From contig NZ_RHQM01000014.1 of assembly GCF_003935375.1 (NCBI RefSeq), forward strand, positions 1 to 64,000: a DNA stretch of 64,000 nt, read 5' to 3'. A program made the translations under genes and the position numbers. Shown here piece by piece: positions 3,095 to 63,421 of this stretch; positions within the stretch are counted from its first letter, which is position 1; every line of letters starts with the position of its first letter. A model generated the notes under the pieces. The model saw only the letters and a program-made list of their open reading frames with translations. It was not told where the DNA came from and ran no database searches. The stretch is from Stutzerimonas xanthomarina (GTDB lineage Bacteria; Pseudomonadota; Gammaproteobacteria; Pseudomonadales; Pseudomonadaceae).

Positions 3095-4471
3095 ATGAAC
3101 ACGCGCGTCGCCATGAATGAGCACACCCTCAAACGGCTTAAATTTGACCCGCAAAAAGGCCGTGTAGAATACCTCGATCCCCCCATGCCAGGGCACGGTA
3201 CTTTTGGTGTGCGGGTCAACAAGACATGCAAAAGTTTCATCTTCCTGTACAGCTTTCATAACCATCCGCGGCGCCTGACGCTGGGCAATTACCCCGATTT
3301 GTCACTCGCCGAGGCCCGCGCCAAGGCGGCGCAGGCCGCTGAACTGCTCAAGCAGGGGATCGATCCCGGGCAGAAGAAGATTGTCGAGTTGGTCGAGTAC
3401 CGTACGAGCCCGACTTTTGAGGAGGCCGTTGAAAGCTATCTGGACTGGGCCCGGGCCAACAAGAAGTCGTGGCGTGAGGATGAGCGCATGCTGCGCACTG
3501 AGTTTGTACCCCACCTGGGCAGGGCCAAAATCGGTGATGTCAGGCGCAAACAGGTGGTGGCGTTGCTCGATGACAAGGCCAAGACCGCCCCGGTGCAGGC
3601 CAACCGTCTGCTGGCCGTGATCCGCAAAATGTTCAACTTCTGCGTCGAACGCGAGATTCTCGATGCCACACCTCTGGTGCAGATCAAGAAGGTGGCCAAG
3701 GAAACGCCGCGCGAACGCAGTCTCAATCGGCACGAACTGGTGTGGTTTCTGCACCAGTTGGCCGGAGCCTCGCTGACTCAAAACACGCGCTTTGCTCTGT
3801 TGCTGAGTCTGATGCTGGCGCAGCGCTCGGGGCGCATCGTGGCCATGCGCTGGGTCGACTTTGACCTCGATGACCGGATCTGGGATCGCAGTGGCAAGTT
3901 CGAGAAGAACAACAACCCCATTGCCATTCCGCTCTCGGACGATGTGTTGAACATTCTGAATTACCTGCGTGAGCGGCAGATTCAGAAAGTGATGGCGGCA
4001 GACCCTGCGCGTTGGGCTGACAGCAAAACGTTGCCCAGTCCTGGGCAGTATGTGTTTCCTGGACGGTGGCCTGCTAAGCCGCAGACGCAGCCTTCGCTCA
4101 ATCGCGCGATGCGCCGTTTCTACGATGACTATGTGAAGGATTCAGATCGCGTCGAAGAAGAGGGGCTGCTGCGAGTTGCCGATGGCTATCCGCGTCCAAC
4201 CGTGCATGACTTGCGTCGCACGGCGACCACGCACATGTCCAAGCATGGCTTGGGTAAGGAGGTGCGCAGTCGCATCCTCAACCACACAGATTTGTCGGTG
4301 GATGCGATCTATGACCGCTATGCCTACTTTGAAGAAAAGGCAGTGGCTCTCCAAGGGTGGCATACCTATCTGAAGGGGTTGCTGCAGAAGGAGTTTGGTG
4401 ACGTGGATTGGGTTGAGTTCTACGGGCGGCGTATGGAGGCCCAGGTGCCAGACGAGGAGGGCGATGCGTGA
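3095..4471 (+). CDS. Tyrosine-recombinase integrase (DUF4102-type N-terminus)
   Basis: A 458-residue site-specific recombinase for an integrative element. Residues 1-95 form the DUF4102 arm-binding domain (LTLGNYPDLSLAEARAKAA). A SAM-like core-binding domain follows (about 105-190). The C-terminal catalytic domain shows the first Arg in LAQRSGRIVAMRW, HDLRRTATTHM (HxxR), LNHTD and the nucleophile Tyr in YDRYAYFEEKA. The usual Glu after the first Arg (RxGE) is Arg here. It points away from the tRNA-Thr fragment. An in-frame ATG six codons downstream is an alternative start. Length is typical for the family. Confidence 0.92.
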   Translation: MNTRVAMNEHTLKRLKFDPQKGRVEYLDPPMPGHGTFGVRVNKTCKSFIFLYSFHNHPRRLTLGNYPDLSLAEARAKAAQAAELLKQGIDPGQKKIVELVEYRTSPTFEEAVESYLDWARANKKSWREDERMLRTEFVPHLGRAKIGDVRRKQVVALLDDKAKTAPVQANRLLAVIRKMFNFCVEREILDATPLVQIKKVAKETPRERSLNRHELVWFLHQLAGASLTQNTRFALLLSLMLAQRSGRIVAMRWVDFDLDDRIWDRSGKFEKNNNPIAIPLSDDVLNILNYLRERQIQKVMAADPARWADSKTLPSPGQYVFPGRWPAKPQTQPSLNRAMRRFYDDYVKDSDRVEEEGLLRVADGYPRPTVHDLRRTATTHMSKHGLGKEVRSRILNHTDLSVDAIYDRYAYFEEKAVALQGWHTYLKGLLQKEFGDVDWVEFYGRRMEAQVPDEEGDA

Positions 4472-4535: not shown

Positions 4536-5855
4536 CTAGCGCGCGTCAATCGGTCCGAGCTGGCGGGTCATCTCCGCGATCACAATGCTGACGATGGCGC
4601 GCAGCAAGCGCATCTCTCCGGCCAGTGTCGCTTTCAGTGTCGGGCGCTGTGCGGTCAGTACGCTGTTTTCCTGCGCCACTTCTGCCAACAACTGCTTTGC
4701 CTGTGTCGAAACATTACTCACCAAGCGAGTGATCGCTGTGCGGGCTGTTCCGGGTTTGATGCCCATCACCTCGGCAGCGGCCAGCAGCAAGGCCGGGGTC
4801 ACCTGGTTCAGATGCGCTTCGCCCTCGATGGGCCAGGCCAGGGTGACGGCCTGTGGCCAGGTGTCTTTGTCGAACGCGCGGGTGCCGTAGACCGACATGC
4901 ACAGCAGGTCGTAGAACGGTGCCAGGCGGACTTTGGCACCGTAGGTCAGGAAACTGAGGTTTTTCAGGTGCGCGTCTTCGTTGCCGACCAGTACGTTGAA
5001 CACCAGCCACTCGAACAGGGCCAAGCGGGCTACCGCCGCCGGGGCGCAGAGTGCGGCCACCTCGGCCAGTCGGGTGACACTGCCGGCGCTGTACTTGAAC
5101 TCCCGTGACAGCCCCAGCAACTGGCAGGTATCCAGGCAGTGCTGGCGTTGCCAGTGCCCGGCATCGTGGGTGCGGTCAAAGCGCGCCACCAGATAGACCG
5201 GTTCCGGGACATACAGGCGCGTCACTTCGGGCACAGCCAGACCGACACGTTTGGCTAGGGTCATCACGAACCATTCGTTGATGACGGAGTGGGCCCAGGC
5301 CCGGTCCGGGTGATCGGGTTTCAGAATGTGCGTCGAGGGACTGGAGCCCTCCGGGTCGAACAAGGTGCCGTTCCGGTAGATGACCGCCATCTTGTGCTGC
5401 GCTCCGGCCAGCGACATCTTTTTTGCCGAGCGATAGGCCAGCGGTACCTGCGGCATCTGCTGGATACGCTGGGACAGCTCCTCGTAGGGCAGAGGTTTTT
5501 CGCTGCCGTTGGCGGGGCGGGTATCGGGCGGTAGCAAGGTGAGTGAACCGGCGGACTCGGCCCCGTATACCTGCAGCAAGGCAAAGGCATCTTCTACGTT
5601 GGCAGCCGAGGCTTTGGCGAGGAGGGCGCGTTGCCCCTCTTCCGGTAGGAGGTTGTCGAAATACCACTGTACCGGACGGTGGGAGGCGCCGTCGAGGTGT
5701 TCCTCGGGTTGCAGGGGCAAGCCCGGGCACACCGCGAAGGCACTGTTACTGGCCAGCCACGCAGGAGCATAACCGAACGCCCACAGCCCATTCTGCTCGC
5801 GGATGTAGCCCACAAGTGCGTCGTTGATCCAGACGTTCAGGGTGCGCGGGGTCAT
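4536..5855 (-). CDS. hipA: HipA-family serine/threonine kinase toxin
   Basis: A 439-residue kinase of the HipA family; the E. coli member phosphorylates glutamyl-tRNA synthetase and causes persistence. Residues 1-100 are the Couple_hipA N-subdomain (WYFDNLLPEEGQR). The kinase core shows the glycine-rich SLAGAQHKMAV, the ATP-binding Lys in THILKPDH, the catalytic loop NEDAHLKNLSF and the metal-binding APFYDLL. All key residues are present, so it should be active. It overlaps hipB by ATGA. Its place on an integrase-bearing island suggests a stabilisation role, which is inference. The C-terminal 60 residues are longer than in E. coli HipA and not recognised. Confidence 0.9.
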   Translation of the reverse strand: MTPRTLNVWINDALVGYIREQNGLWAFGYAPAWLASNSAFAVCPGLPLQPEEHLDGASHRPVQWYFDNLLPEEGQRALLAKASAANVEDAFALLQVYGAESAGSLTLLPPDTRPANGSEKPLPYEELSQRIQQMPQVPLAYRSAKKMSLAGAQHKMAVIYRNGTLFDPEGSSPSTHILKPDHPDRAWAHSVINEWFVMTLAKRVGLAVPEVTRLYVPEPVYLVARFDRTHDAGHWQRQHCLDTCQLLGLSREFKYSAGSVTRLAEVAALCAPAAVARLALFEWLVFNVLVGNEDAHLKNLSFLTYGAKVRLAPFYDLLCMSVYGTRAFDKDTWPQAVTLAWPIEGEAHLNQVTPALLLAAAEVMGIKPGTARTAITRLVSNVSTQAKQLLAEVAQENSVLTAQRPTLKATLAGEMRLLRAIVSIVIAEMTRQLGPIDAR

Positions 5856-26757: not shown

Positions 26758-27945
26758 ATGAGCAACAAGGTACTGGTCGCCGGTGTGGGGATGGTCAAGT
26801 TCACCAAGCCCGGCAAGAGCGAGATGTATGACGTGATGGGGGGCGATGCCGCCGCCCTGGCGCTGAAGGACGCCGGCATCGACTATTCCGAAGTGCAGCA
26901 GGCCTTCGCCGGCTTCGTTGCCGGGGACACCTGTTCCGGGCAGACCGCGTTGTACCGTGTCGGCATCACCGGCATTCCGGTAATCAACGTCAACAATGCC
27001 TGTGCCAGTGGATCTTCTGCCTTGTTCCTGGCGCGTCAGGCTGTGGCCAGCGGTGTGGTCGACGTGGCCCTGGCGGTCGGCTTCGAGCAGATGAACCCGG
27101 GGGCCATGTCCACCGGTGACGCGGCGCTGCGCACACCGATCACGGTGAAGATCGACGAGGCGGTGCGCAAGATCCGTGGCTGGGACGACAACGCCCCGAG
27201 CGGGCCGCAGTACTTCGGCGGTGCGGGTGCCGAATACCTGGAGAAGTACAACGTTTCCGCCCATCTGTTCGGCCGCGTTTCGGTCAAGGCGCGCAGCCAT
27301 GCGCTGCGCAACCCTTATGCACTGTTCACCGAGCCGCTGACCCTGGAGCAGGTGATGACCTCGCCGCAGATCTTCGGCCCGGTCACGCGCCTGATGTGCT
27401 GCCCGCCAACCTGTGGCGGGGCAGCTGTGGTGGTGGTTTCCGAGGCGTATGCGCGCAAGCATGGCCTGCGCAACTGCGTGGAAATCGCCGGCATGAGCCT
27501 AACCACCGACACGGCCGATAGCTTCGATTCCGGCAGCATGCTCAACGTGGTCGGCGCGGGCATGACCCGTCGCGCGGCGGCCCAGGCCTATGAGCAGGCC
27601 GGCGTGGGGGCGGAGGACATCGATGTACTCGAGTTGCACGACTGTTTCTCGCCCAACGAGGTCATCACCTATGAGGCGCTCGGCGTGTGCGAGGAGGGTG
27701 GTGCCGAGAAATTCGTTCTCGACGGACAGAATACCTATGGCGGTCGTGTGGTCACCAACCCGTCCGGCGGCCTGTTGTCCAAGGGCCATCCCCTGGGCGC
27801 CACCGGCCTGGCGCAGATTACCGAGCTGACCTGGCACCTGCGCGGCCAGGCTGGTGATCGCCAGGTGGAGAATGCCCGCGTCGCCCTGCAGCACAACATC
27901 GGCCTGGGGGGCGCCGGGGTGGTCACCATCCTCAAGAGCATCTGA
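26758..27945 (+). CDS. SCP-2-type thiolase (lipid-transfer acetyl-CoA acyltransferase)
   Basis: A 395-residue thiolase of the SCPx/lipid-transfer class. The nucleophile is the Cys in NNACASGSSALFLARQ; the His and second active-site region are LHDCFSPNEVITYEALG, and GGLLSKGHPLGATGLAQ closes the site. It should split a 3-ketoacyl-CoA with CoA, and this class tolerates branched chains (SCPx acts on 2-methyl 3-ketoacyl-CoA). AGGAG lies just before the ATG. It is second in the operon after the MFE-2-like SDR, which makes its substrate, and is followed by folE. Confidence 0.9.
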   Translation: MSNKVLVAGVGMVKFTKPGKSEMYDVMGGDAAALALKDAGIDYSEVQQAFAGFVAGDTCSGQTALYRVGITGIPVINVNNACASGSSALFLARQAVASGVVDVALAVGFEQMNPGAMSTGDAALRTPITVKIDEAVRKIRGWDDNAPSGPQYFGGAGAEYLEKYNVSAHLFGRVSVKARSHALRNPYALFTEPLTLEQVMTSPQIFGPVTRLMCCPPTCGGAAVVVVSEAYARKHGLRNCVEIAGMSLTTDTADSFDSGSMLNVVGAGMTRRAAAQAYEQAGVGAEDIDVLELHDCFSPNEVITYEALGVCEEGGAEKFVLDGQNTYGGRVVTNPSGGLLSKGHPLGATGLAQITELTWHLRGQAGDRQVENARVALQHNIGLGGAGVVTILKSI

Positions 27946-28005
27946 GGCTGAAGCGCCCGGCGTTTGCCAGGCGCCTGTTCAATGAGATCAATGGGAGAGA
28001 TGCTG

Positions 28006-28563
28006 ATGAGCGAATCCATGCCCCAGCACTACCGGGAGATATTGCTCGGTATCGGGGAGAACCCCGCTCGTGAAGGCCTGCTGGACACCCCCAAGCGCGC
28101 TGCCAAGGCCATGCAGTACCTCTGTCACGGCTACCGGCAGACGCTGGAGGAAGTCACCAACGGCGCACTGTTCAGCTCCGACAACAGCGAAATGGTGCTG
28201 GTGAAGAACATCGAGCTGTACTCGCTGTGCGAGCATCATCTGCTGCCGTTCATCGGCAAGGCTCACGTCGCCTACATTCCCAACGGCAAGGTGCTCGGCC
28301 TGTCCAAGGTGGCGCGCATCGTCGACATGTTCGCCCGCCGCCTGCAGATCCAGGAAAATCTCAGCCGGCAGATCGCCGAAGCCATCGAACAGGTCACCGG
28401 CGCCCTCGGCGTGGCGGTGGTGATCGAGGCGCAGCACATGTGCATGATGATGCGCGGTGTGGAGAAGCAGAACTCGTCCATGGTCACCTCGGTGATGCTC
28501 GGTGAGTTCCGCAACAACCCGGCAACCCGCAGCGAGTTCCTCCAACTGATCGGACGAAAGTAG
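28006..28563 (+). CDS. folE: GTP cyclohydrolase I
   Basis: Converts GTP to 7,8-dihydroneopterin triphosphate, first step to folate or tetrahydromonapterin. The 185-residue protein has the zinc and catalytic motifs [40 protein letters not shown] and [20 protein letters not shown] start at [14 protein letters not shown] (28006), with GGGAGAG upstream. It lies 60 bp after the thiolase, and folX starts 3 bp after its stop. Pseudomonas genomes have a folE-folX-folM group outside catabolic loci, so its position at the end of a catabolic operon is odd. Confidence 0.95.
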
Positions 28564-28566
28564 CCA

Positions 28567-28938
28567 ATGGCGGGCCTACAACCTGGCATGGCGCGCATCC
28601 GTGTCAAGAATCTGAGTTTGCGCACCCATATCGGCATCAAGGAAGAGGAGATTCTCAATAAGCAGGATGTGCTGATTAACCTGACTATTCTTTATCCCGC
28701 CGCCGAGGCGGTGCGGGACAACGATATCGAACATGCATTGAACTATCGCACCATCACCAAGGCGATCATCGGCCATGTCGAGGGCAATCGTTTCGCCTTG
28801 CTGGAACGCCTGACTCAGGAGATTCTCGATTTGGCGATGCGGGATCCGCGTGTGCGTTACGCTGAAGTGGAGGTGGATAAACCGCACGCCCTGCGCTTCA
28901 CCGAGTCGGTTTCGATAACGCTGGCTGGCAAGCGCTGA
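28567..28938 (+). CDS. folX: Dihydroneopterin triphosphate 2'-epimerase
   Basis: A 123-residue tunnelling-fold enzyme related to FolB. It epimerises dihydroneopterin triphosphate to the monapterin form, on the way to tetrahydromonapterin, the cofactor of phenylalanine hydroxylase in Pseudomonas. The sequence [23 protein letters not shown] and [24 protein letters not shown] with [17 protein letters not shown] matches FolX more than FolB. It is coupled to folE. The usual third partner, folM, is not next to it; the following genes are acyl-CoA dehydrogenases on the other strand. Confidence 0.88.
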
Positions 28939-33405: not shown

Positions 33406-33774
33406 CTAGTTGCTGTGTGGGTCGAAAACGACGAAGGACTGTTCCGGGCCTGCGCAGATGCGTGCCTTGACGCGCAAGCCGATGTGCACCTGGTCGGCCG
33501 GCAGGCCCTCGACCCGGGACATCAGGCGCGGGCCTTCGTCCAGGTCGACCAGCACCACGGTATAGGGCTCGACTGGCGGTTTGGGGCGTACCACGGTGAC
33601 CGCATAGACCGTGCCCAGGCCCGAGGCCTCCACCCATTCCAGGTCGGTGGCACCGGTGCCGGGTTCCAGCACTCGCGGATAGAAGAAATGGCGCTGGCTG
33701 GAGCGACTGCGCTGGAGCATGAAGCGCCCCTCTTTGAGGAACCCTTGGAATTCGAGATCGGGGCATAGGCTCAT
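33406..33774 (-). CDS. DUF35 OB-fold protein (thiolase/aldolase partner), zinc ribbon lost
   Basis: A 122-residue DUF35 protein. The OB-fold part (LEWVEASGLGTVYAVTVV, YTVVLVDLDEGPRLMSRV, IGLRVKARICAG) is clear. The rubredoxin-like zinc ribbon that usually precedes it (CPxCG) reads YPRVLEPGTGATD, with no cysteines. DUF35 proteins are accessory subunits of SCP-2 thiolases and of the Ltp2 aldolase (with ChsH2) in steroid degradation. The Ltp2-like protein at 62237 and the thiolase at 26758 are possible partners. It is first in the operon running to 29159. Confidence 0.8.
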   Translation of the reverse strand: MSLCPDLEFQGFLKEGRFMLQRSRSSQRHFFYPRVLEPGTGATDLEWVEASGLGTVYAVTVVRPKPPVEPYTVVLVDLDEGPRLMSRVEGLPADQVHIGLRVKARICAGPEQSFVVFDPHSN

Positions 33775-49002: not shown

Positions 49003-50067
49003 ATGACCACGACACTTCCCGATTTCGATGGCCTGCTCGACTGGACGGCCCTGGCTGCCTGGATCGACTCCGCTGGCCTGCCTGGCAATGGCCCGGTCAC
49101 CGAGATCAGCCAGCTCAGCGGTGGTTCGCAGAACAATCTGTTTCTCATGCGGCGCGGCGACGCTCGTTTCGTGCTGCGTCGCCCACCTCGCCATCTGCGC
49201 GCTAACAGCAACGAAACCATGGCGCGCGAAGCCAGGGTGCTGGCGGCAATTGCCGATAGTGCCGTGCCCCACCCCCGCCTGCTGGCGGCCTGCACCGATG
49301 CCTCGGTGATGGGCGTCAACTTCTTCGTCATGCAGCCCCTGGAGGGTTTCTCGCCTGCTGGCTCATTGCTGGGGAGGTACGCCACGGACGCCAACTGGCG
49401 CCGGCGCATGGGTGAGGCGTTTGTCAGCGCCGCGGCCGCCCTTGGCGGACTCAATTATCAGGCGCTTGGCCTGGAAGGTTTCGGCAGGCCGCATGACTGG
49501 CATGGTCGTCAGGTGGAGCGTTGGCGCTCGCAACTGGATGGTTACCGTGACACGCCTGGCTATGGCGAGGCTTCGCTGCCCCATGTGGATGCGGTTGGCC
49601 GCTGGCTGTCCGACAACGTTCCGCAGGATGGCCGCATTGGTATCATCCACGGTGATTTCCAGTGGCCCAATGTGATGTTCTCCCTGGAGGCACCGCGCAT
49701 TTCCGGGCTGATCGACTGGGAACTCTCGACCCTCGGCGACCCGCTGCTGGATCTGGCCTGGGTACTGACTTCCTGGCGTGAGCCGGGTGACCCCGAAGGT
49801 GGCGTTGGTGCCAAGCCAGTGGTCGAGCCCTGGGATGGCTTCATGAGCCGCGCCGAACTGATTGCCCTCTACGGCGAACTGAGCGGGCGCGACATGAGCG
49901 CCATGCCGTGGTTCTTCGTCCTTGCCTGCTACAAGCTGGCCTGTCTGCTGGAGGGCACCTACGCCCGCTCACTGATAGGCAAGGCGCCGCAGGAGATGGG
50001 CACCTACCTGCACGACTACGCCACCTGGCTGATGGCCAAGGCCCGACAACTTATCGCGGCCGCCTGA
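49003..50067 (+). CDS. APH-family kinase, ACAD10/LvaA-like (4-hydroxyacyl-CoA kinase)
   Basis: A 354-residue phosphotransferase-fold protein. The N-lobe has QLSGGSQNNLFLM and FVLRRPPRHLRANSNETMAREA; the catalytic loop is GIIHGDFQWPNVMF, and the metal site is GLIDWELSTLGDPLLDLAW. These are the hallmarks of the ACAD10/11-like and LvaA-like kinases. LvaA of P. putida phosphorylates 4-hydroxyacyl-CoA before an acyl-CoA dehydrogenase-like partner eliminates phosphate. The adjacent dehydrogenase gene 27 bp downstream matches that arrangement. A role in antibiotic resistance is unlikely. Confidence 0.85.
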   Translation: MTTTLPDFDGLLDWTALAAWIDSAGLPGNGPVTEISQLSGGSQNNLFLMRRGDARFVLRRPPRHLRANSNETMAREARVLAAIADSAVPHPRLLAACTDASVMGVNFFVMQPLEGFSPAGSLLGRYATDANWRRRMGEAFVSAAAALGGLNYQALGLEGFGRPHDWHGRQVERWRSQLDGYRDTPGYGEASLPHVDAVGRWLSDNVPQDGRIGIIHGDFQWPNVMFSLEAPRISGLIDWELSTLGDPLLDLAWVLTSWREPGDPEGGVGAKPVVEPWDGFMSRAELIALYGELSGRDMSAMPWFFVLACYKLACLLEGTYARSLIGKAPQEMGTYLHDYATWLMAKARQLIAAA

Positions 50068-50094
50068 CGCGGCTCCGTCGACACTGGGAGAACG

Positions 50095-51402
50095 ATGACC
50101 ATGTGGGACTTTTCCACCGAACCCGAATTTCAAGCCAGGCTGGACTGGATCGACCGTTTCCTGCGTGAGGAGGTGGAGCCGCTGGACGTGCTCTATCCCT
50201 CGGTCAGCGTGGTCTACGACACCCGCCACGCCAAATCTCGCGCGATCCTCAAGCCCTTGCAGGACAAGGTGCGCGAGCAGAAGCTCTGGGCCTGCCACCT
50301 CGACCCGCACCTGGGCGGCGAAGGCTATGGCCAGCTCAAGCTGGCACTGATGAACGAGCGCCTGGGGCGTTCGCTGTGGGCGCCCACAGTGTTCGGCACT
50401 GCCGCCCCGGATACCGGCAACGCCGAGATCCTCGCCATGTTCGGCAGCGAGGCGCAGAAGGCGCGCTACCTGCAACCGCTGCTGGACGGCGACATCGTGT
50501 CCTGCTTCTCCATGACCGAACCCCAGGGCGGTGCCGATCCGCGGGTGTTCACCACCACGGCGGTGCGCGATGGCGAGCACTGGGTGATCAGCGGCGAGAA
50601 GTGGTACTCCTCCAACGCCCGCTACGCCGAGTTCATCCTGGTGCTGGCGGTGACCGACCCGGACGCGCCGATCCAGAAGCGTATGTCGATGTTCATCGTG
50701 CCACGCGAGACGCCGGGGCTGGAGATCATCCGCAACGTGCCGCACATGGGCGAGCGCATCGAGCAGGACGAGGCCACCGAAGGCTATCTGCGCTACAACG
50801 GGGTACGTGTGCCGCTGGACCATCTGCTCGGTGACGTCGGCGGCGGTTTCGCCGTGGCCCAGGCGCGCCTAGGCGGTGGACGCATCCACCATGCCATGCG
50901 CACGGTCGGCCAGTGCCAGCGTGCTCTTGACATGATGTGCGAGCGCGCCCTGAGCCGGCATACCCAGGGCACCTCGCTGGCGGAAAAAGGCACGGTGCAG
51001 GCGATGCTAGCCGATACCCAGATCGAGCTGGAACAGTTCCGCCTGCTGGTGCTGAAGACCGCCTGGATCATCGATAACAGCCACGGCGATCCGCGCCAGG
51101 CGCGGGCGCATATCGCCATGGTCAAGGTGGCGATGGCGAAGATCTATTACGAGATCGTGCGCCGCGCCATCCACCTGCACGGCTCCCTCGGCGCCACCTT
51201 CGAGACGCCGCTGGCCTACATGTGGAACAACGTGCCGACCATGGGCCTGGCCGACGGGCCGACCGAGGTCCACCAGATCACCGTGGCCCGCGAGCTGCTG
51301 CGCAAGTACAAGCCCGCCGAGGGCCTGTTTCCCAGCGAGCACCTGCCGCCGAAGATCGCCGCCGCGCGTGCACGCTATGCCGACATCCTGGGAGCGCAGT
51401 GA
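50095..51402 (+). CDS. Acyl-CoA dehydrogenase (ACAD11/LvaC-like)
   Basis: A 435-residue acyl-CoA dehydrogenase. It shows GEGYGQLKLALMNERLGRS, CFSMTEPQGGADPRVFTTTA, WYSSNARYAEFILV, GGGRIHHAMRTVGQCQRALDMM and LHGSLGATFETPLAYMWNNVPTMGLADGPTEVH with the terminal dehydrogenase signature. It is longer than the short-chain type and resembles the partner enzyme of ACAD10/11-type kinases, which acts on phosphorylated 4-hydroxyacyl-CoA. The start MTMWDF is chosen, with MWDF as an alternative. It overlaps the next SDR gene by TGATG. Confidence 0.88.
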   Translation: MTMWDFSTEPEFQARLDWIDRFLREEVEPLDVLYPSVSVVYDTRHAKSRAILKPLQDKVREQKLWACHLDPHLGGEGYGQLKLALMNERLGRSLWAPTVFGTAAPDTGNAEILAMFGSEAQKARYLQPLLDGDIVSCFSMTEPQGGADPRVFTTTAVRDGEHWVISGEKWYSSNARYAEFILVLAVTDPDAPIQKRMSMFIVPRETPGLEIIRNVPHMGERIEQDEATEGYLRYNGVRVPLDHLLGDVGGGFAVAQARLGGGRIHHAMRTVGQCQRALDMMCERALSRHTQGTSLAEKGTVQAMLADTQIELEQFRLLVLKTAWIIDNSHGDPRQARAHIAMVKVAMAKIYYEIVRRAIHLHGSLGATFETPLAYMWNNVPTMGLADGPTEVHQITVARELLRKYKPAEGLFPSEHLPPKIAAARARYADILGAQ

Positions 51403-53839: not shown

Positions 53840-55489
53840 ATGAGCTTTTCCACCCAACTCAACGACAAGGCGCTGCCCGGCTGGTCCGTCGGTCAGATGG
53901 ATACCGTCAACGACGTGGTGCGCCGTGCGGCGCGCGAGCATGGCGACCGCCAGTTTCTAGACGTGCTGGGCGATACCTACAGCTTCGCCGACATCCAGCG
54001 CGAGAGCTGCTGGCTGGCCAATGGTCTGGCGACCCTGGGCCTGGTCAAGGGCCAGACGGTAGTCACCCTGATCGACAACAATGCTGACGCGGTGCTGCTC
54101 TGGTTCGCCCTGAACAAGCTGGGCGCCATCAGCGTGCCGGTGAACACCGCGCTCAAGGGCGACTTCCTACGCCACCAGATCGCCGATGCCAGCGCCGAAC
54201 TGGTGATCGCCGAGACCGAGTACGTCGAGCGCATCGCCCTGGTGCAGGAGTCGCTACCCGGTCTCAAGCACATTGTCCACCGTGGCACCGCACCCGCGGC
54301 GGACTTCGGCGGGAAGACGCTGCTTGCACTGGAGGCGCTGCGCAGTGACGACGCCAGTGATCCTCAGGTCGAGGTGCTGCCCAGCGATCTGACCATGCTC
54401 ATCTATACCGGCGGCACCACCGGCCCATCCAAGGGCTGCATGATCAGCCACAACAACGCCTGCAACGAGGCACGGTAGATCATCGAGGCTCACGGGCGAA
54501 CGCCTGACTCCATCACCTGGACGCCGCTGCCTCTGTTCCACCTCAATGCCACGGTCACCACCATCCTGTGCAACCTGATGATCGGCGCCCGCTCGGTGAT
54601 CTATCCGCGCTTTTCGGTCTCCGGGTTCTGGGCCGATATCGAACGTAGCGGCGCCATCGAGGCCAACCTGCTGGCCTCGATGGGCCCGCTGCTGGCCGAC
54701 GCGCCGGACAACGAAGCGATGAAGCGCTGCTACGGCCAGCTCGACAAGGTCTATTCGGCGCCGTTCCTGCCGGAACTGCAGGCACGCTGGCGCGAGCGCT
54801 TCGGCGTGCGCTACACGGTCGGCGGTGCCGGTTTCGGCCTCACCGAGTGCGCCATCGTCACCATGCTGCCCTTAGGCCAGCCGGACAAACCCAACTGCGC
54901 GGGGCGTCGCTGTGACTCGTTCGATATCCGTGTGGTCGATGAGCATGACGTCGAGCTGCCCTATGGCACGCCCGGCGAGCTGATCGTGCGCCCGCTCAAG
55001 CCCCATGTGATGTTCGAGGGCTACTGGAACCGCCCGGCCGACACTCTCAAGGTTATGCGCAACATGTGGTTCCACACCGGCGACATCGGCAAGATGGACG
55101 AGGATGGGTTCTTCTTCTTCCTCGACCGCAAGAAGGACTACATGCGCCGTGGCGGCGAGAACATCTCGGGTTTCGAGATGGAACGCAGCTTCCTCGTCCA
55201 TCCGCAGATCGAGGAGGTGGCGGTGCATGCGGTGTTCTCGGAACTGTCGGAAGACGAGGTGAAGGTGACTGCCGTGCTGCGCGAGGGCAGCACGCTCAGC
55301 GAAGAGGAGCTGTGTCGCTGGGCCATCGAGCGTGTGCCGTACTATGCGGTGCCGCGCTATATCGAGTTTCGCGACGAACTACCTCGCAGTCCGGTAGGGC
55401 GCATTCTCAAGTACCGCTTGCGTGATGAGGGGGTGACCGAGAGCACCTGGGATCGAGTCAAGGCCAATGTCACTTTTGACAAGCGCTGA
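53840..55489 (+). pseudogene. AMP-forming acyl-CoA ligase with an internal amber stop
   Basis: Read through, this is a 549-codon AMP-binding ligase similar throughout to the intact one at 60374-61999. A5-type motif LIYTGGTTGPSKGCMISHN, then WTPLPLFHLNAT, the adenylate region and WFHTGDIGKMDEDGFFFFLDRKKDYMRRGGENIS, with the C-terminal Lys in SPVGRILKYRLR. An in-frame TAG at 54476-54478 falls where the paralogue has Gln (ARQML), so one C-to-T change explains it. No frameshift is seen, and the frame is otherwise open. It is either a recent nonsense mutation, a sequencing error or a suppressed stop. Confidence 0.85.
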
Positions 55490-60373: not shown

Positions 60374-61999
60374 TCAGCGCTTATTGAGCTTGAAACCGGC
60401 CTTTTCACGATCCCAGGTGGTGGTGGTGACGCCTTCGTCACGCAGCTGGAACTTGTAGACGCGACCCAGGGGGCTCTTCGGCAGGGCGCTGCGGAACTCG
60501 ATATAGCGCGGCACTGCGTAGTAGGGCATCTGTTCGGCAGCCCAGTGGCACAGGTCTACCTCGCTCAGGCTGGTGTCCGGCTTGAGGGTGATGGTCACCT
60601 TCAGTTCATCCTCGCCCAGATCGGAGAGCACTGCGTGGGCGGCCACTTCGTCCACAGCCGGATGCTGGAGGAAGGCGCTTTCCACCTCGAAGCTGGAAAT
60701 GTTCTCGCCACGGCGGCGCAGGTAGTCCTTCTTGCGGTCGAGGAAGTAGAAGTAGTCATCCTCGTCGAACATGCCGATGTCGCCGGTGTGGAACCACATG
60801 TTGCGCATGACCTTGAGGGTATCTTCCGGACGCTTCCAGTAGCCCTCGAACATGATGTGAGGCTTGCGCGGACGGACGATGATCTCGCCGGGGGTGTTGG
60901 GCGGCAGTTCGTTGTCGTGGTCATCGACGATGCGTACGTCGAAGTATTCCGTGTTGCGCTTACCGGAGCTGTTCGGCCGCATCGGCGTACCGAATGGCAG
61001 GATGGTCGGCAGCGAGCATTCGCTCAGGCCGAAGCCGCCGACAACGGTGTGGGTGACGCCGAAGCGCGTCTTCCATGCCTGCTGCACTGGTTCCGGGAAA
61101 GGTGCGCCCCATACGCCTTTGATCTGGCCGTAGCAGCGCTTCATTGCGTCGTTGTCCGGCGCGCCGGCCAGCATCGGCATCATCGCCGCCAGCAGACCCA
61201 CGTCATTGGCACCGGTACGTTCGATTTCCGGCCAGAAATTGGACACCGAGAAGCGTGGGTAGATGGCGACCTGGGCGCCGACCATCATGTTGCACAGGAC
61301 GCTGGTGGCCACGGCATTGAAGTGGAACAGCGGTAGCGGCGTCCAGGTGATGGTTGTTTCATCGCGATTGGTGATCATCAGCATCTGTCGCGCCAGGCTG
61401 CACGTATAGTTGTGGCTGATCATGCAGCCTTTGGACGGGCCGGTGGTGCCACCGGTATAGATGAGCATGGCCAAATCGCCAGGTTGCACATCAACCTCGG
61501 GTTCGCTGGTGTCGTCGCTGAGCAGGCCGGCCCAGGGTAGCAGTTGCTTGTTAAACACCAGGTCGGGCGTGGTGCCGCGATAGACCAGGGTTTCCAGGTT
61601 GGGCAGCTTGTCGGCGATGTTGGCCACGCGCTCGGCATAATCGTGTTCGGCGATCACTACGGCAGCATCGGCGTCGGATACCTGATGGCGCAGGAAATCG
61701 CCCTTTAGTGCGGTGTTCACCGGCACGCTTATCGCGCCGAGCTTGTTGATGGCGAACCAGATGACGACGGCGTCGGCCGAATTGTCGAGGATGGTGACGA
61801 CGGTCTGACCTTTGCTCACTCCCAGGCCTTTTAGCCCATTGGCCAGGCGGCAGGCAGCCCGGTTCAGGTCGGCGAAGCTGTAGGTCTCGCCAAGGAACTC
61901 GAGGAATTGGCGGTCGCCGTACTTCTCCGTAGAGCGTTGCAGTACGGCGTTGATGGTGTCGACCTGATCAGTGCTCCAGCCGGGTTCGCGTGCTGACAT
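60374..61999 (-). CDS. AMP-forming acyl-CoA ligase
   Basis: A 541-residue adenylate-forming enzyme (acyl-CoA synthetase, caiC-like). Motifs: LIYTGGTTGPSKGCMISHN, WTPLPLFHFNAVATSV, GFGLSECSLPTILPFG, WFHTGDIGMFDEDDYFYFLDRKKDYLRRRGENISS and the C-terminal acyl-activating Lys in SPLGRVYKFQLRDEG. It activates a pathway acid to its CoA ester with ATP. It is intact, while its paralogue at 53840 carries a stop. It is first in an operon with the alpha/beta hydrolase, and an operator lies 118 bp upstream. Confidence 0.92.
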   Translation of the reverse strand: MSAREPGWSTDQVDTINAVLQRSTEKYGDRQFLEFLGETYSFADLNRAACRLANGLKGLGVSKGQTVVTILDNSADAVVIWFAINKLGAISVPVNTALKGDFLRHQVSDADAAVVIAEHDYAERVANIADKLPNLETLVYRGTTPDLVFNKQLLPWAGLLSDDTSEPEVDVQPGDLAMLIYTGGTTGPSKGCMISHNYTCSLARQMLMITNRDETTITWTPLPLFHFNAVATSVLCNMMVGAQVAIYPRFSVSNFWPEIERTGANDVGLLAAMMPMLAGAPDNDAMKRCYGQIKGVWGAPFPEPVQQAWKTRFGVTHTVVGGFGLSECSLPTILPFGTPMRPNSSGKRNTEYFDVRIVDDHDNELPPNTPGEIIVRPRKPHIMFEGYWKRPEDTLKVMRNMWFHTGDIGMFDEDDYFYFLDRKKDYLRRRGENISSFEVESAFLQHPAVDEVAAHAVLSDLGEDELKVTITLKPDTSLSEVDLCHWAAEQMPYYAVPRYIEFRSALPKSPLGRVYKFQLRDEGVTTTTWDREKAGFKLNKR

Positions 62000-62141: not shown

Positions 62142-62236
62142 AGAGTCTGCCGCAGTCTGGATGGGGGGTCAATACTCTCTCGAGTGGCTCCTGGGAACCT
62201 GCCCGAAATCTGATAACAAGCAAAAGAGGAAGCTCC

Positions 62237-63421
62237 ATGGTGTCGGCTCTGGAACGAACAGCGATCATTTCCGGGATTGGCCAGTCGGCCGTGGGGCGCA
62301 GGTTGGGGCGCACGGGGTTGGATCTTACTTTGGAAGCCATTCTCGCAGCATTGACGGATGCAGGGCTCGATCGCAGCCAGATAGACGGAGTGGCCAGCTG
62401 GCCGGGCTATCGTGCCGACATGCCGGCCTTCTCGCCGGTTTCCATTGGCCAGGTCAAGGAAGCCTTGGGCCTGGAGCTGAACTGGTATTGCGCGGGCAAC
62501 GAAGCCACCCAGATGAGCGGTTTGATCAATGCCTGCATGGCTGTGGCCTCGGGTCAGGCTCGCCATGTTCTGTGCTTTCGTACCGTAACCGAGTCCAGCG
62601 CCCTGGCGCAGGGTGTGCGCTCCAGCACTGTGGGGGGCTCGGCGCCACGGGTATCCGGTTTCGGTGAGTTCTTGGTGCCGTTCCAGGCCACCTCCGCCGC
62701 CAACTGGGTGGCCCTTGCCGCCAGCCGTTATTTCCATGAATTCGGTACCCGCCGGGAACAGTTGGCGGCCATTGCCCTGAACGCTCGGCGTAACGCCATG
62801 CTCAACCCCAAGGCGGTCTATCGCGACCCGCTGAGCCTCGACCAGTACATGAGCACCCGGATGATTTCCACGCCGCTGTGCCTGTTCGACTGCGATGTGC
62901 CGGTGGATGGGGCTACCGTGCTTATCGTTTCACATCGTGACACGGCGCCGGATCTACGCAGCAAACCGGTGTTCGTCGAATCCATCTGTGGCCCGTTCAG
63001 TGGCCGGGATGCCTGGGATCAGATGGATGATCTCACCCGTTACAGTGCCGAAGCCTGTGGCAAGCGTCTGTGGAGCCGAACCGACTACAAGCCGGCCGAT
63101 GTGGATGTGGCCGAGCTGTATGACGGCTTCAGCTTCCTCACCTTGCTCTGGCTGGAGGGATTGGGCTTCTGCGGGCGGGGCGAGGCGGCGGCCTTCGTCG
63201 AAGGAGGCCAGCGTATCGCCCTCGATGGCGAACTGCCCCTGGCGACCCACGGCGGTCAGCTATCGGCCGGTCGCCTGCATGGTCTTGGCCATGTGCACGA
63301 GGCGGTGGTGCAGTTGCGTGGCGAGGGCGAGGCGAGGCAGGTGCCAGGGCAGCCGAAACTGGCCGTGGCCAGTAATGGCGGGGGGCCTCTGGCTGGTGCG
63401 GTACTGCTGTCGCGTGAGTGA
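62237..63421 (+). CDS. Thiolase-fold protein of the Ltp2 aldolase type
   Basis: A 394-residue thiolase-superfamily protein. The usual nucleophile Cys motif (NxACASG) is replaced by LNWYCAGNEATQMSG, the HDCF motif by LYDGFSFLTLLWLEG and GHPLGATG by THGGQLSAGRLHGLGHVHEAV. This pattern is that of Ltp2, which performs a retro-aldol cleavage in cholesterol and bile-acid side-chain degradation with a DUF35 partner. The DUF35 gene here is at 33406-33774. GAGGAA lies upstream of the ATG. I infer aldolase rather than thiolase activity. Confidence 0.78.
   Translation: MVSALERTAIISGIGQSAVGRRLGRTGLDLTLEAILAALTDAGLDRSQIDGVASWPGYRADMPAFSPVSIGQVKEALGLELNWYCAGNEATQMSGLINACMAVASGQARHVLCFRTVTESSALAQGVRSSTVGGSAPRVSGFGEFLVPFQATSAANWVALAASRYFHEFGTRREQLAAIALNARRNAMLNPKAVYRDPLSLDQYMSTRMISTPLCLFDCDVPVDGATVLIVSHRDTAPDLRSKPVFVESICGPFSGRDAWDQMDDLTRYSAEACGKRLWSRTDYKPADVDVAELYDGFSFLTLLWLEGLGFCGRGEAAAFVEGGQRIALDGELPLATHGGQLSAGRLHGLGHVHEAVVQLRGEGEARQVPGQPKLAVASNGGGPLAGAVLLSRE

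Follow-up and report, generated by a model that had tools for sequence, protein, structure and literature searches.

The gene at 62237-63421 on the plus strand of the window, the whole stretch of 64,000 nucleotides of Stutzerimonas xanthomarina DNA analysed here, codes for a thiolase-like protein in which the usual catalytic motifs are replaced. Which reaction might such a protein catalyse, and with which partner? An earlier note on this DNA had proposed a retro-aldolase with motifs as in the steroid aldolase Ltp2, acting with the DUF35 protein encoded at 33406. Below, P0001 denotes the protein encoded at 62237-63421 and C5 the contig that carries the window. The main features of the gene are as follows.

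62226..62230, +, GAGGA, Shine-Dalgarno-like, 6 nt 5' of the P0001 ATG (sequence)
62237..63421, +, thiolase-fold protein P0001 of the YDGF/GGQLSxGR family, 394 aa (ORF, Pfam, structure matches, tree)
62480..62512, +, NWYCAGNEATQ codons, residues 82-92, loop of the thiolase nucleophilic Cys (alignment)
63119..63133, +, Y295-D-G297-F-S codons, invariant in 86/86 rows
63251..63283, +, GGQLSAGRLHG codons, residues 339-349 (alignment)

Fold, family and tree position of P0001

The ATG at 62237 was kept as the start codon because the alignment with 6ok1_A already begins at residue 3; a later start at 62390, given by a codon-score gene finder, was dropped for that reason. Thiolase_C_1 (PF22691, 112.8 bits) is the sole Pfam domain detected in P0001 at E values up to 0.001. 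Its matches among solved structures are thiolases, acyltransferases and thiolase-like aldolases, the nearest by sequence being Ltp2 of Thermomonospora curvata (TcLtp2, 6ok1_A, phmmer E 5.9e-54), followed by 4u4e. An AlphaFold model of the monomer, built from 47 family rows, has a mean pLDDT of 84.7 and a pTM of 0.90 and is weak at residues ~121-160. Foldseek found it nearest to 6ok1 (E 1.7e-37), and VIA-align 2 gave a Z score of 47.6 with that structure (rmsd 2.5 over 365 residues), as compared with 45.5 for 4u4e, 44.1 for the acetoacetyl-CoA thiolase 6esq and 44.0 for Sal. As modelled, P0001 has a thiolase fold that is closest to the Ltp2 steroid aldolase. A fold held in common does not demonstrate function.

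A scan of 84,980 species genomes, in which loci were selected for the motifs R[HY]FHE[FY]GT and FDCD[VA][PH][CVA]D, yielded 414 confirmed relatives, the best 80 of which were fetched. Judging by their titles, these 80 come from Actinomycetota, Myxococcota/Deltaproteobacteria, Binatia and Alpha-, Beta- and Gammaproteobacteria, and many are metagenome-assembled; five of the loci are from Pseudomonas, two of them with proteins 100% identical to P0001. Within the genus of the window, occurrence is patchy: at an E value of 1e-20, four of 36 other genomes have a homologue at 53-54% identity, two have weaker matches only and 30 have none. The family is widespread and apparently uncharacterised. Among CC-licensed PMC texts, no paper dealt with a YDGF-type thiolase family, and the titles and the beginnings of abstracts of the DUF35 and aldolase literature in that collection named no such family.

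In a tree of 52 rows (quick IQ-TREE, with SH-aLRT values as the only branch support and without bootstrap), the 20 family rows form one clade with an SH-aLRT of 100 and a long stem. TcLtp2 (99), the 4u4e/C5:73908 type (99) and the SCPx group (100) form separate clades. The Comamonas testosteroni Sal (CtSal) and IpfD lie on long branches, and their places in the tree are unsure. The top NCBIfam model for P0001, the lipid-transfer protein PRK07855, scores 269 bits, under its cut-off of 469. P0001 thus does not sit among the Ltp2 proteins.

Active-site columns

The three motifs on which that note relied are present as written, NWYCAGNEATQ at residues 82-92, LYDGFSF at 294-300 and GGQLSAGRLHGLGHVHEAV at 339-357. 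We aligned 86 family rows, namely P0001, 80 sequences from named genomes, three further relatives and two plasmid sequences, which correspond to 83 distinct aligned sequences. They were compared with 31 outside rows comprising Ltp2, Sal, IpfD, 4u4e and paralogues, with the C5:73908 protein of the same genome counted twice. 'Invariant' refers here to the nearer part of the family, i.e. the best 80 of 414 relatives. The conservation of D218, C219, D220 and D224 is partly by selection, because the scan patterns cover those residues; neither YDGF nor GR played a part in the selection.

Looked at as thiolases, the family members have the nucleophilic Cys, the second Cys and the catalytic His in 0/86 rows each. 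In the P0001 model, the NWYCAGNEATQ loop lies between strand 83-86 and helix 92-104; most relatives have one residue more in this loop, so that the alignment of P0001 there can slip by one. The Cys of NWYC was ruled out as the nucleophile, since C85 is near the nucleophile column but not at it and its column has Cys in only 12/86 rows. Two other Cys residues, C219 (86/86) and C312 (85/86), are conserved outside the catalytic columns. The columns of the SCP2-thiolase HDCF motif read YDGF in 86/86 rows, with Gly replacing the second Cys in all of them, and the GHP histidine column is occupied by Arg in 86/86. SCP2-thiolases/SCPx have the fold and CoA chemistry in common with P0001, and the one encoded at 26758-27945 of the window keeps CASG, HDCF and GHP, all three of which are replaced in P0001. 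The claim of a thiolase fold without catalytic cysteines is thus borne out by the Thiolase_C_1 domain, the structure matches and the nucleophile column.

The motifs YDGFS, GGQ, GR and HG are each invariant (86/86). The counterparts of YDGF are Y294-D-H-F in TcLtp2 and Y302-D-C-Y in CtSal. Ltp2, which pairs with ChsH2(DUF35) and is 34% identical to P0001, has the same fold, base Tyr (Y294, equivalent to Y295), GGQ glutamine and type of DUF35 partner. In contrast, Arg346 of P0001 (codon 63272-63274) stands where TcLtp2 has Tyr344 and thiolases have His, Gly297 replaces the oxyanion-hole His296 of YDHF, and Glu89 (codon 62501-62503) replaces a Gly. The bile-acid aldolase Sal-Shy(DUF35) of C. testosteroni (9myr) likewise has in common with P0001 the fold, the base Tyr (Y302), the GGQ glutamine and a DUF35 partner, whereas its Cys304 and Gln352 correspond to Gly297 and Arg346. 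Shy is a MaoC-DUF35 fusion (PMC11321319), unlike the stand-alone DUF35 proteins of the P0001 genome.

Gly297 and Arg346 are each found in 86/86 family rows. No Arg occupies column 346 in the 31 outside rows, which have Tyr, His, Gln or Glu there. Position 89, beside the nucleophile column, has 84 Glu and 2 Asp in the 86 rows; among the outside rows, only IpfD has Glu. The placing of Y295, R346 and E89 in space is suggested by the alignment and the secondary structure of the model. The base and the acid are, respectively, Tyr294 and Tyr344 in Ltp2 and Tyr302 and Cys304 in Sal (PMC12329534). As aligned, P0001 retains the aldolase base Tyr (Y295) and has neither known aldolase acid. Likeness to Ltp2 therefore holds for Tyr295 and Gln341 but breaks down at the acid (Arg346 vs Tyr344) and at the YDHF His (Gly297). 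Membership of P0001 in either Ltp2 or Sal was ruled out by the residues together with the tree, and it should not be filed as one or the other because a defining residue of each fails.

Two other groups resemble P0001 in part. IpfD and IpfE of ibuprofen degradation are reported to convert a cis-diol acyl-CoA to propionyl-CoA and 4-isobutylcatechol (PMC10004696; see also PMC9195938). We picked them in pIBU218 of Rhizorhabdus wittichii MPO218 by their place between dioxygenase and ligase genes, IpfD being called hypothetical in the record. Like the P0001 family, they are a Thiolase_C_1 and DUF35 pair, and IpfD has a Tyr in YDAF and a Glu in the E89 column; it differs by a Tyr in the Arg346 column, identities of 35-38% and a separate long branch. 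The 4u4e/C5:73908 type also has the YDxF Tyr and no nucleophilic Cys and, unlike P0001, has His at column 346 and Ala or Ser at 297. Y295 is no proof of an aldolase, because the YDxF Tyr also occurs in 4u4e and in C5:73908, both of unknown activity.

With all the classical catalytic residues replaced, P0001 might be a degenerate thiolase serving as a non-catalytic or scaffold protein. We regard this as highly improbable, as the replacements are invariant over several phyla (86/86), which is not expected of degenerate enzymes, and as a DUF35 partner gene accompanies the family.

DUF35 genes of the family and of this genome

In 70/80 loci, spanning Actinomycetota, Myxococcota/Deltaproteobacteria, Binatia and Proteobacteria, the thiolase gene is immediately preceded by a DUF35 ORF on the same strand. 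With the start codons chosen, on which these counts depend, the two genes overlap in 53 of the 70, are at most 30 nt apart in 13 and are 55-82 nt apart in four. In one metagenome-assembled deltaproteobacterium, a single open frame encodes both DUF35 and thiolase, joined by a short repeat linker (L115:9482-11194, +); it may reflect a genuine fusion or an artefact of assembly. Association with DUF35, as suggested in the earlier note, is thus well supported for the family, by 70 adjacent ORFs and one fused frame in 80 loci.

The adjacent DUF35 proteins are nearly all of one type: 69/70 are of what we call type A, i.e. like the protein encoded at C5:115976, with His-Pro after the first zinc knuckle. 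The exception, at locus L100, is of a second kind with a YPR motif, and a type-A gene is found 6 kb upstream. All four zinc-ligand Cys are retained in 56/70. In 13/80 loci (L048, L049, L050, L054, L057, L065, L067, L076, L089, L098, L102, L111 and L120), a second DUF35, with the YPR motif and four Cys, is also encoded; its gene is upstream of the adjacent type-A one and within ~1 kb of the thiolase gene.

DUF35 is neither adjacent nor fused in 9/80 loci: the five from Pseudomonas, two of which match the window almost perfectly over 21 kb, L052 (at a contig edge), Sinimarinibacterium, L060 and L116. Sinimarinibacterium has a type-A gene ~7 kb downstream of the thiolase gene, and no DUF35 was found on the L060 and L116 loci. 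Genomes were searched for seven of the nine, and all seven have a DUF35 like that of C5:115976, with best identities of 48-100%. In the four Pseudomonas genomes searched, this DUF35 is on the same contig as the C5:73908 homologue (92-100% identical) and, by coordinates, 41-61 kb from the P0001 homologue. The partner rule is not absolute, because nine loci have no DUF35 beside the thiolase, that of L100 is not of type A and 13 loci have a second DUF35.

Which DUF35, then, belongs with P0001? The genome codes for three Thiolase_C_1 proteins over the cut-off, at window positions 26758 and 62237 and at C5:73908, and for two DUF35 proteins, at 33406 and C5:115976; all are on C5. The DUF35 ORF that the earlier note had pointed to is real (PF01796, 70 bits).

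33406..33774, -, DUF35 (OB_ChsH2_C) protein without all four zinc-ribbon Cys, assigned to C5:73908-75059

The other, C5:115976-116383, is a type-A DUF35 gene outside the window, ~53 kb from the P0001 gene. In comparisons with the DUF35 proteins of family loci, the C5:115976 protein reaches 174 bits with those encoded next to the thiolases, while the 33406 protein attains ~40-73 bits, its best matches being the second DUF35s of the YPR kind. A relation of P0001 to 33406, alone or as a second DUF35 subunit, could be argued from this weak similarity to the YPR-kind DUF35s of the 13 loci, from the adjacent DUF35 of L100 being of that kind, and from the presence of both genes in the window, with 33406 in an acyl-CoA operon. 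However, the YPR-kind DUF35s of family loci keep four Cys, which 33406 lacks. A match to 33406 was obtained in 185 plasmid records, and we opened the four nearest, 55-63% identical, from Azospirillum, Comamonas, Variovorax and Paraburkholderia. All four are without the same zinc Cys. In three of these loci, the next gene codes for a thiolase that shares 65-68% identity with C5:73908 and only 35-38% with P0001; in the Azospirillum locus, four acyl-CoA dehydrogenase genes follow DUF35, with no thiolase in the stretch examined. The three opened relatives of the C5:73908 type are thus adjoined by a cysteine-free DUF35 of the 33406 type. Also standing against 33406 is the prevalence of the other type next to family members, including in two genomes of the same genus. 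We hold the P0001-33406 pairing to be quite unlikely and set it aside on these orthologue neighbourhoods; the 33406 protein is probably outside the P0001 system.

Several neighbourhoods connect P0001 with C5:115976 instead. In two same-genus genomes, whose homologues are 53-54% identical to P0001, and in one genome of the same order, a type-A DUF35 gene is directly upstream of the P0001 homologue. A Massilia putida plasmid codes for a thiolase 72% identical to P0001 and, ~43 kb away, for a type-A DUF35 66% identical to that of C5:115976 and followed by four acyl-CoA dehydrogenase genes. The stretch downstream of C5:115976 matches this Massilia block (68% DNA identity over 4.1 kb). Acyl-CoA dehydrogenase-like ORFs adjoin C5:115976, and two of them cluster with Pfam-confirmed ACADs; on its other side, the SDR encoded at C5:116637 is 64% identical to an SDR near the Massilia thiolase. 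These comparisons make it very probable that the C5:115976 protein, rather than that of 33406, is the partner of P0001. Co-expression of P0001 and DUF35 is not evident, because the partner gene is ~53 kb away.

Gene neighbourhood suggests two pairs, 62237 with C5:115976 and C5:73908 with 33406. The latter, C5:73908-75059 (L007:9908-11059, +) with window 33406-33774 (-), is a predicted second DUF35-thiolase pair, in which the DUF35 is without the four zinc-ribbon Cys and the thiolase has YDAF and a kept His. The 33406 operon also codes for two acyl-CoA dehydrogenases, a CoA transferase and an SDR.

Genomic surroundings and proposed reaction

A ligase gene is transcribed divergently from that of P0001.

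60374..61999, -, divergent acyl-CoA ligase, 541 aa, beside the P0001 gene (Pfam)

Around these two genes are others for acyl-CoA ligases, acyl-CoA dehydrogenases, double-hotdog hydratases and SDRs, as well as CoA transferases, a thioesterase and amidohydrolase-like proteins. Farther along C5 we found genes for a KshA_C Rieske oxygenase (87056-88069), an FMN oxidoreductase of the old-yellow-enzyme kind, DUF1302, DUF1329 and an MMPL transporter. Across the family, a MaoC-type hydratase gene lies three to four genes upstream in 12/60 loci (those anchored, out of 75, by a crude gene finder). In two same-genus genomes, a ligase 53-54% identical to that of 60374-61999 is encoded 6-7 kb from the family member. 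There, besides this ligase, the cluster around the homologue codes for ring-hydroxylating dioxygenase subunits, an extradiol-type dioxygenase and two FAA hydrolases (Pfam was run on one of the two), and it recalls the ipf cluster.

The neighbour genes fit the activation, dehydrogenation, hydration and C-C cleavage of a bulky acyl-CoA. A search of the genome for FAD_binding_2 gave 24 matches, among which no KstD-type protein was recognised; two are full-length, and we take them to be SdhA and NadB. A steroid nucleus as the substrate is doubtful because these two proteins read as SdhA and NadB, and a steroid-nucleus pathway is unsupported in spite of the KshA_C protein. Compared with Ltp2, P0001 has no recognised KstD-type FAD_binding_2 protein in its genome and no DUF35 gene adjacent to its own. 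The genes downstream of P0001 for an ABC binding protein, a GMC protein, an ALDH and an enoyl-CoA hydratase were considered as parts of the system; this was weakened by the absence of the block from Pseudomonas capeferrum 20A1 (L045), in which the match to the P0001 gene is followed, after 75 nt, by a stretch matching C5 from 68843 on.

Other features of the window deserve mention. The acyl-CoA ligase gene at 53840-55489 (+) is split by one in-frame stop codon, and its relative at 60374-61999, ~71% identical in DNA, is one open frame. At 27991-28938 (+), folE- and folB-like genes (GTP cyclohydrolase I and dihydroneopterin aldolase) lie within an acyl-CoA catabolic cluster, and folE is also present in the Massilia plasmid cluster. 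At 49003-51402 (+), a phosphotransferase (APH) gene adjoins an acyl-CoA dehydrogenase gene, a layout also seen in the Massilia plasmid. Near the left edge, a phage-type integrase gene (3095-4471, +) and a HipA-like gene (4536-5855, -) perhaps mark the edge of a genomic island.

We think it reasonably likely, from the sequence comparisons above, that P0001 is the catalytic subunit of a two-protein, DUF35-dependent and CoA-dependent retro-aldol C-C lyase; from these data we infer its activity, the direction of the reaction, the roles of the residues, the dimer and complex, and the substrate. A thiolase-fold P0001 dimer would bind a 3-hydroxyacyl-CoA made by the neighbouring acyl-CoA dehydrogenases and hydratases and cleave it in a retro-aldol reaction, releasing a short acyl-CoA (acetyl- or propionyl-CoA) together with an aldehyde or a ketone. 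The zinc-ribbon/OB-fold DUF35 protein of C5:115976-116383 would sit at the sides of the dimer and help to form its substrate pocket, like ChsH2-DUF35 and Shy-DUF35. Tyr295 would deprotonate the 3-hydroxyl. For the return of a proton to the enolate, the Tyr344 of Ltp2 and the Cys304 of Sal are not available, because these positions are Arg346 and Gly297, respectively. Arg346 might lower the pKa of Tyr295, hold the enolate oxygen, or both; the proton might be returned by Tyr295 itself or by Glu89, which adjoins the empty nucleophile position.

A smaller but appreciable chance goes to another reaction of the same DUF35-dependent fold, such as the decarboxylation of a malonyl-type CoA, a hydrolytic or carboxylate-assisted retro-Claisen cleavage or a Cys-free acyl transfer, with Arg346 binding the substrate carboxylate or the enolate. 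In favour of this are the changes in every catalytic column of thiolases, the loss of both known aldolase acids, and the invariant Arg in place of the former His, which is well matched to a negatively charged substrate or intermediate. Weak malonyl-CoA decarboxylation has been reported for TbSLP, and DUF35 partners also serve thiolases and acyltransferases, namely benzoylsuccinyl-CoA thiolase, PhlABC and archaeal acetoacetyl-CoA thiolase (PMC12329534), which also weighs against the aldolase reading. Nevertheless, the aldolase base Tyr is invariant, the closest relative in both structure and sequence is an aldolase, and the hydrophobic acyl-CoA setting, with its dehydrogenases and hydratases, fits dehydrogenation, hydration and aldol cleavage.

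Beyond the retro-aldol lyase reading of P0001 itself, we put forward only tentatively that the family is an undescribed third catalytic class of DUF35-dependent thiolase-fold C-C lyases, acting on non-steroid acyl-CoAs in Actinomycetota, Myxococcota and Pseudomonadota, with a Tyr base and an invariant Arg (and a Glu beside the vacant nucleophile site) where Ltp2 relies on an acid Tyr and Sal on an acid Cys. The fairest label is that of a variant of DUF35-dependent thiolase-fold lyases distinct from Ltp2 and Sal. The family carries a warning that YDxF alone is not enough to name an aldolase, and the typing of DUF35 proteins offers a way to assign dispersed DUF35 genes to the thiolases with which they belong. 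The two solved aldolases of this fold have different acids, and these residues have been used to explain side-chain length (PMC12329534). A large family with the base and without either acid in all aligned rows offers a direct test of that explanation.
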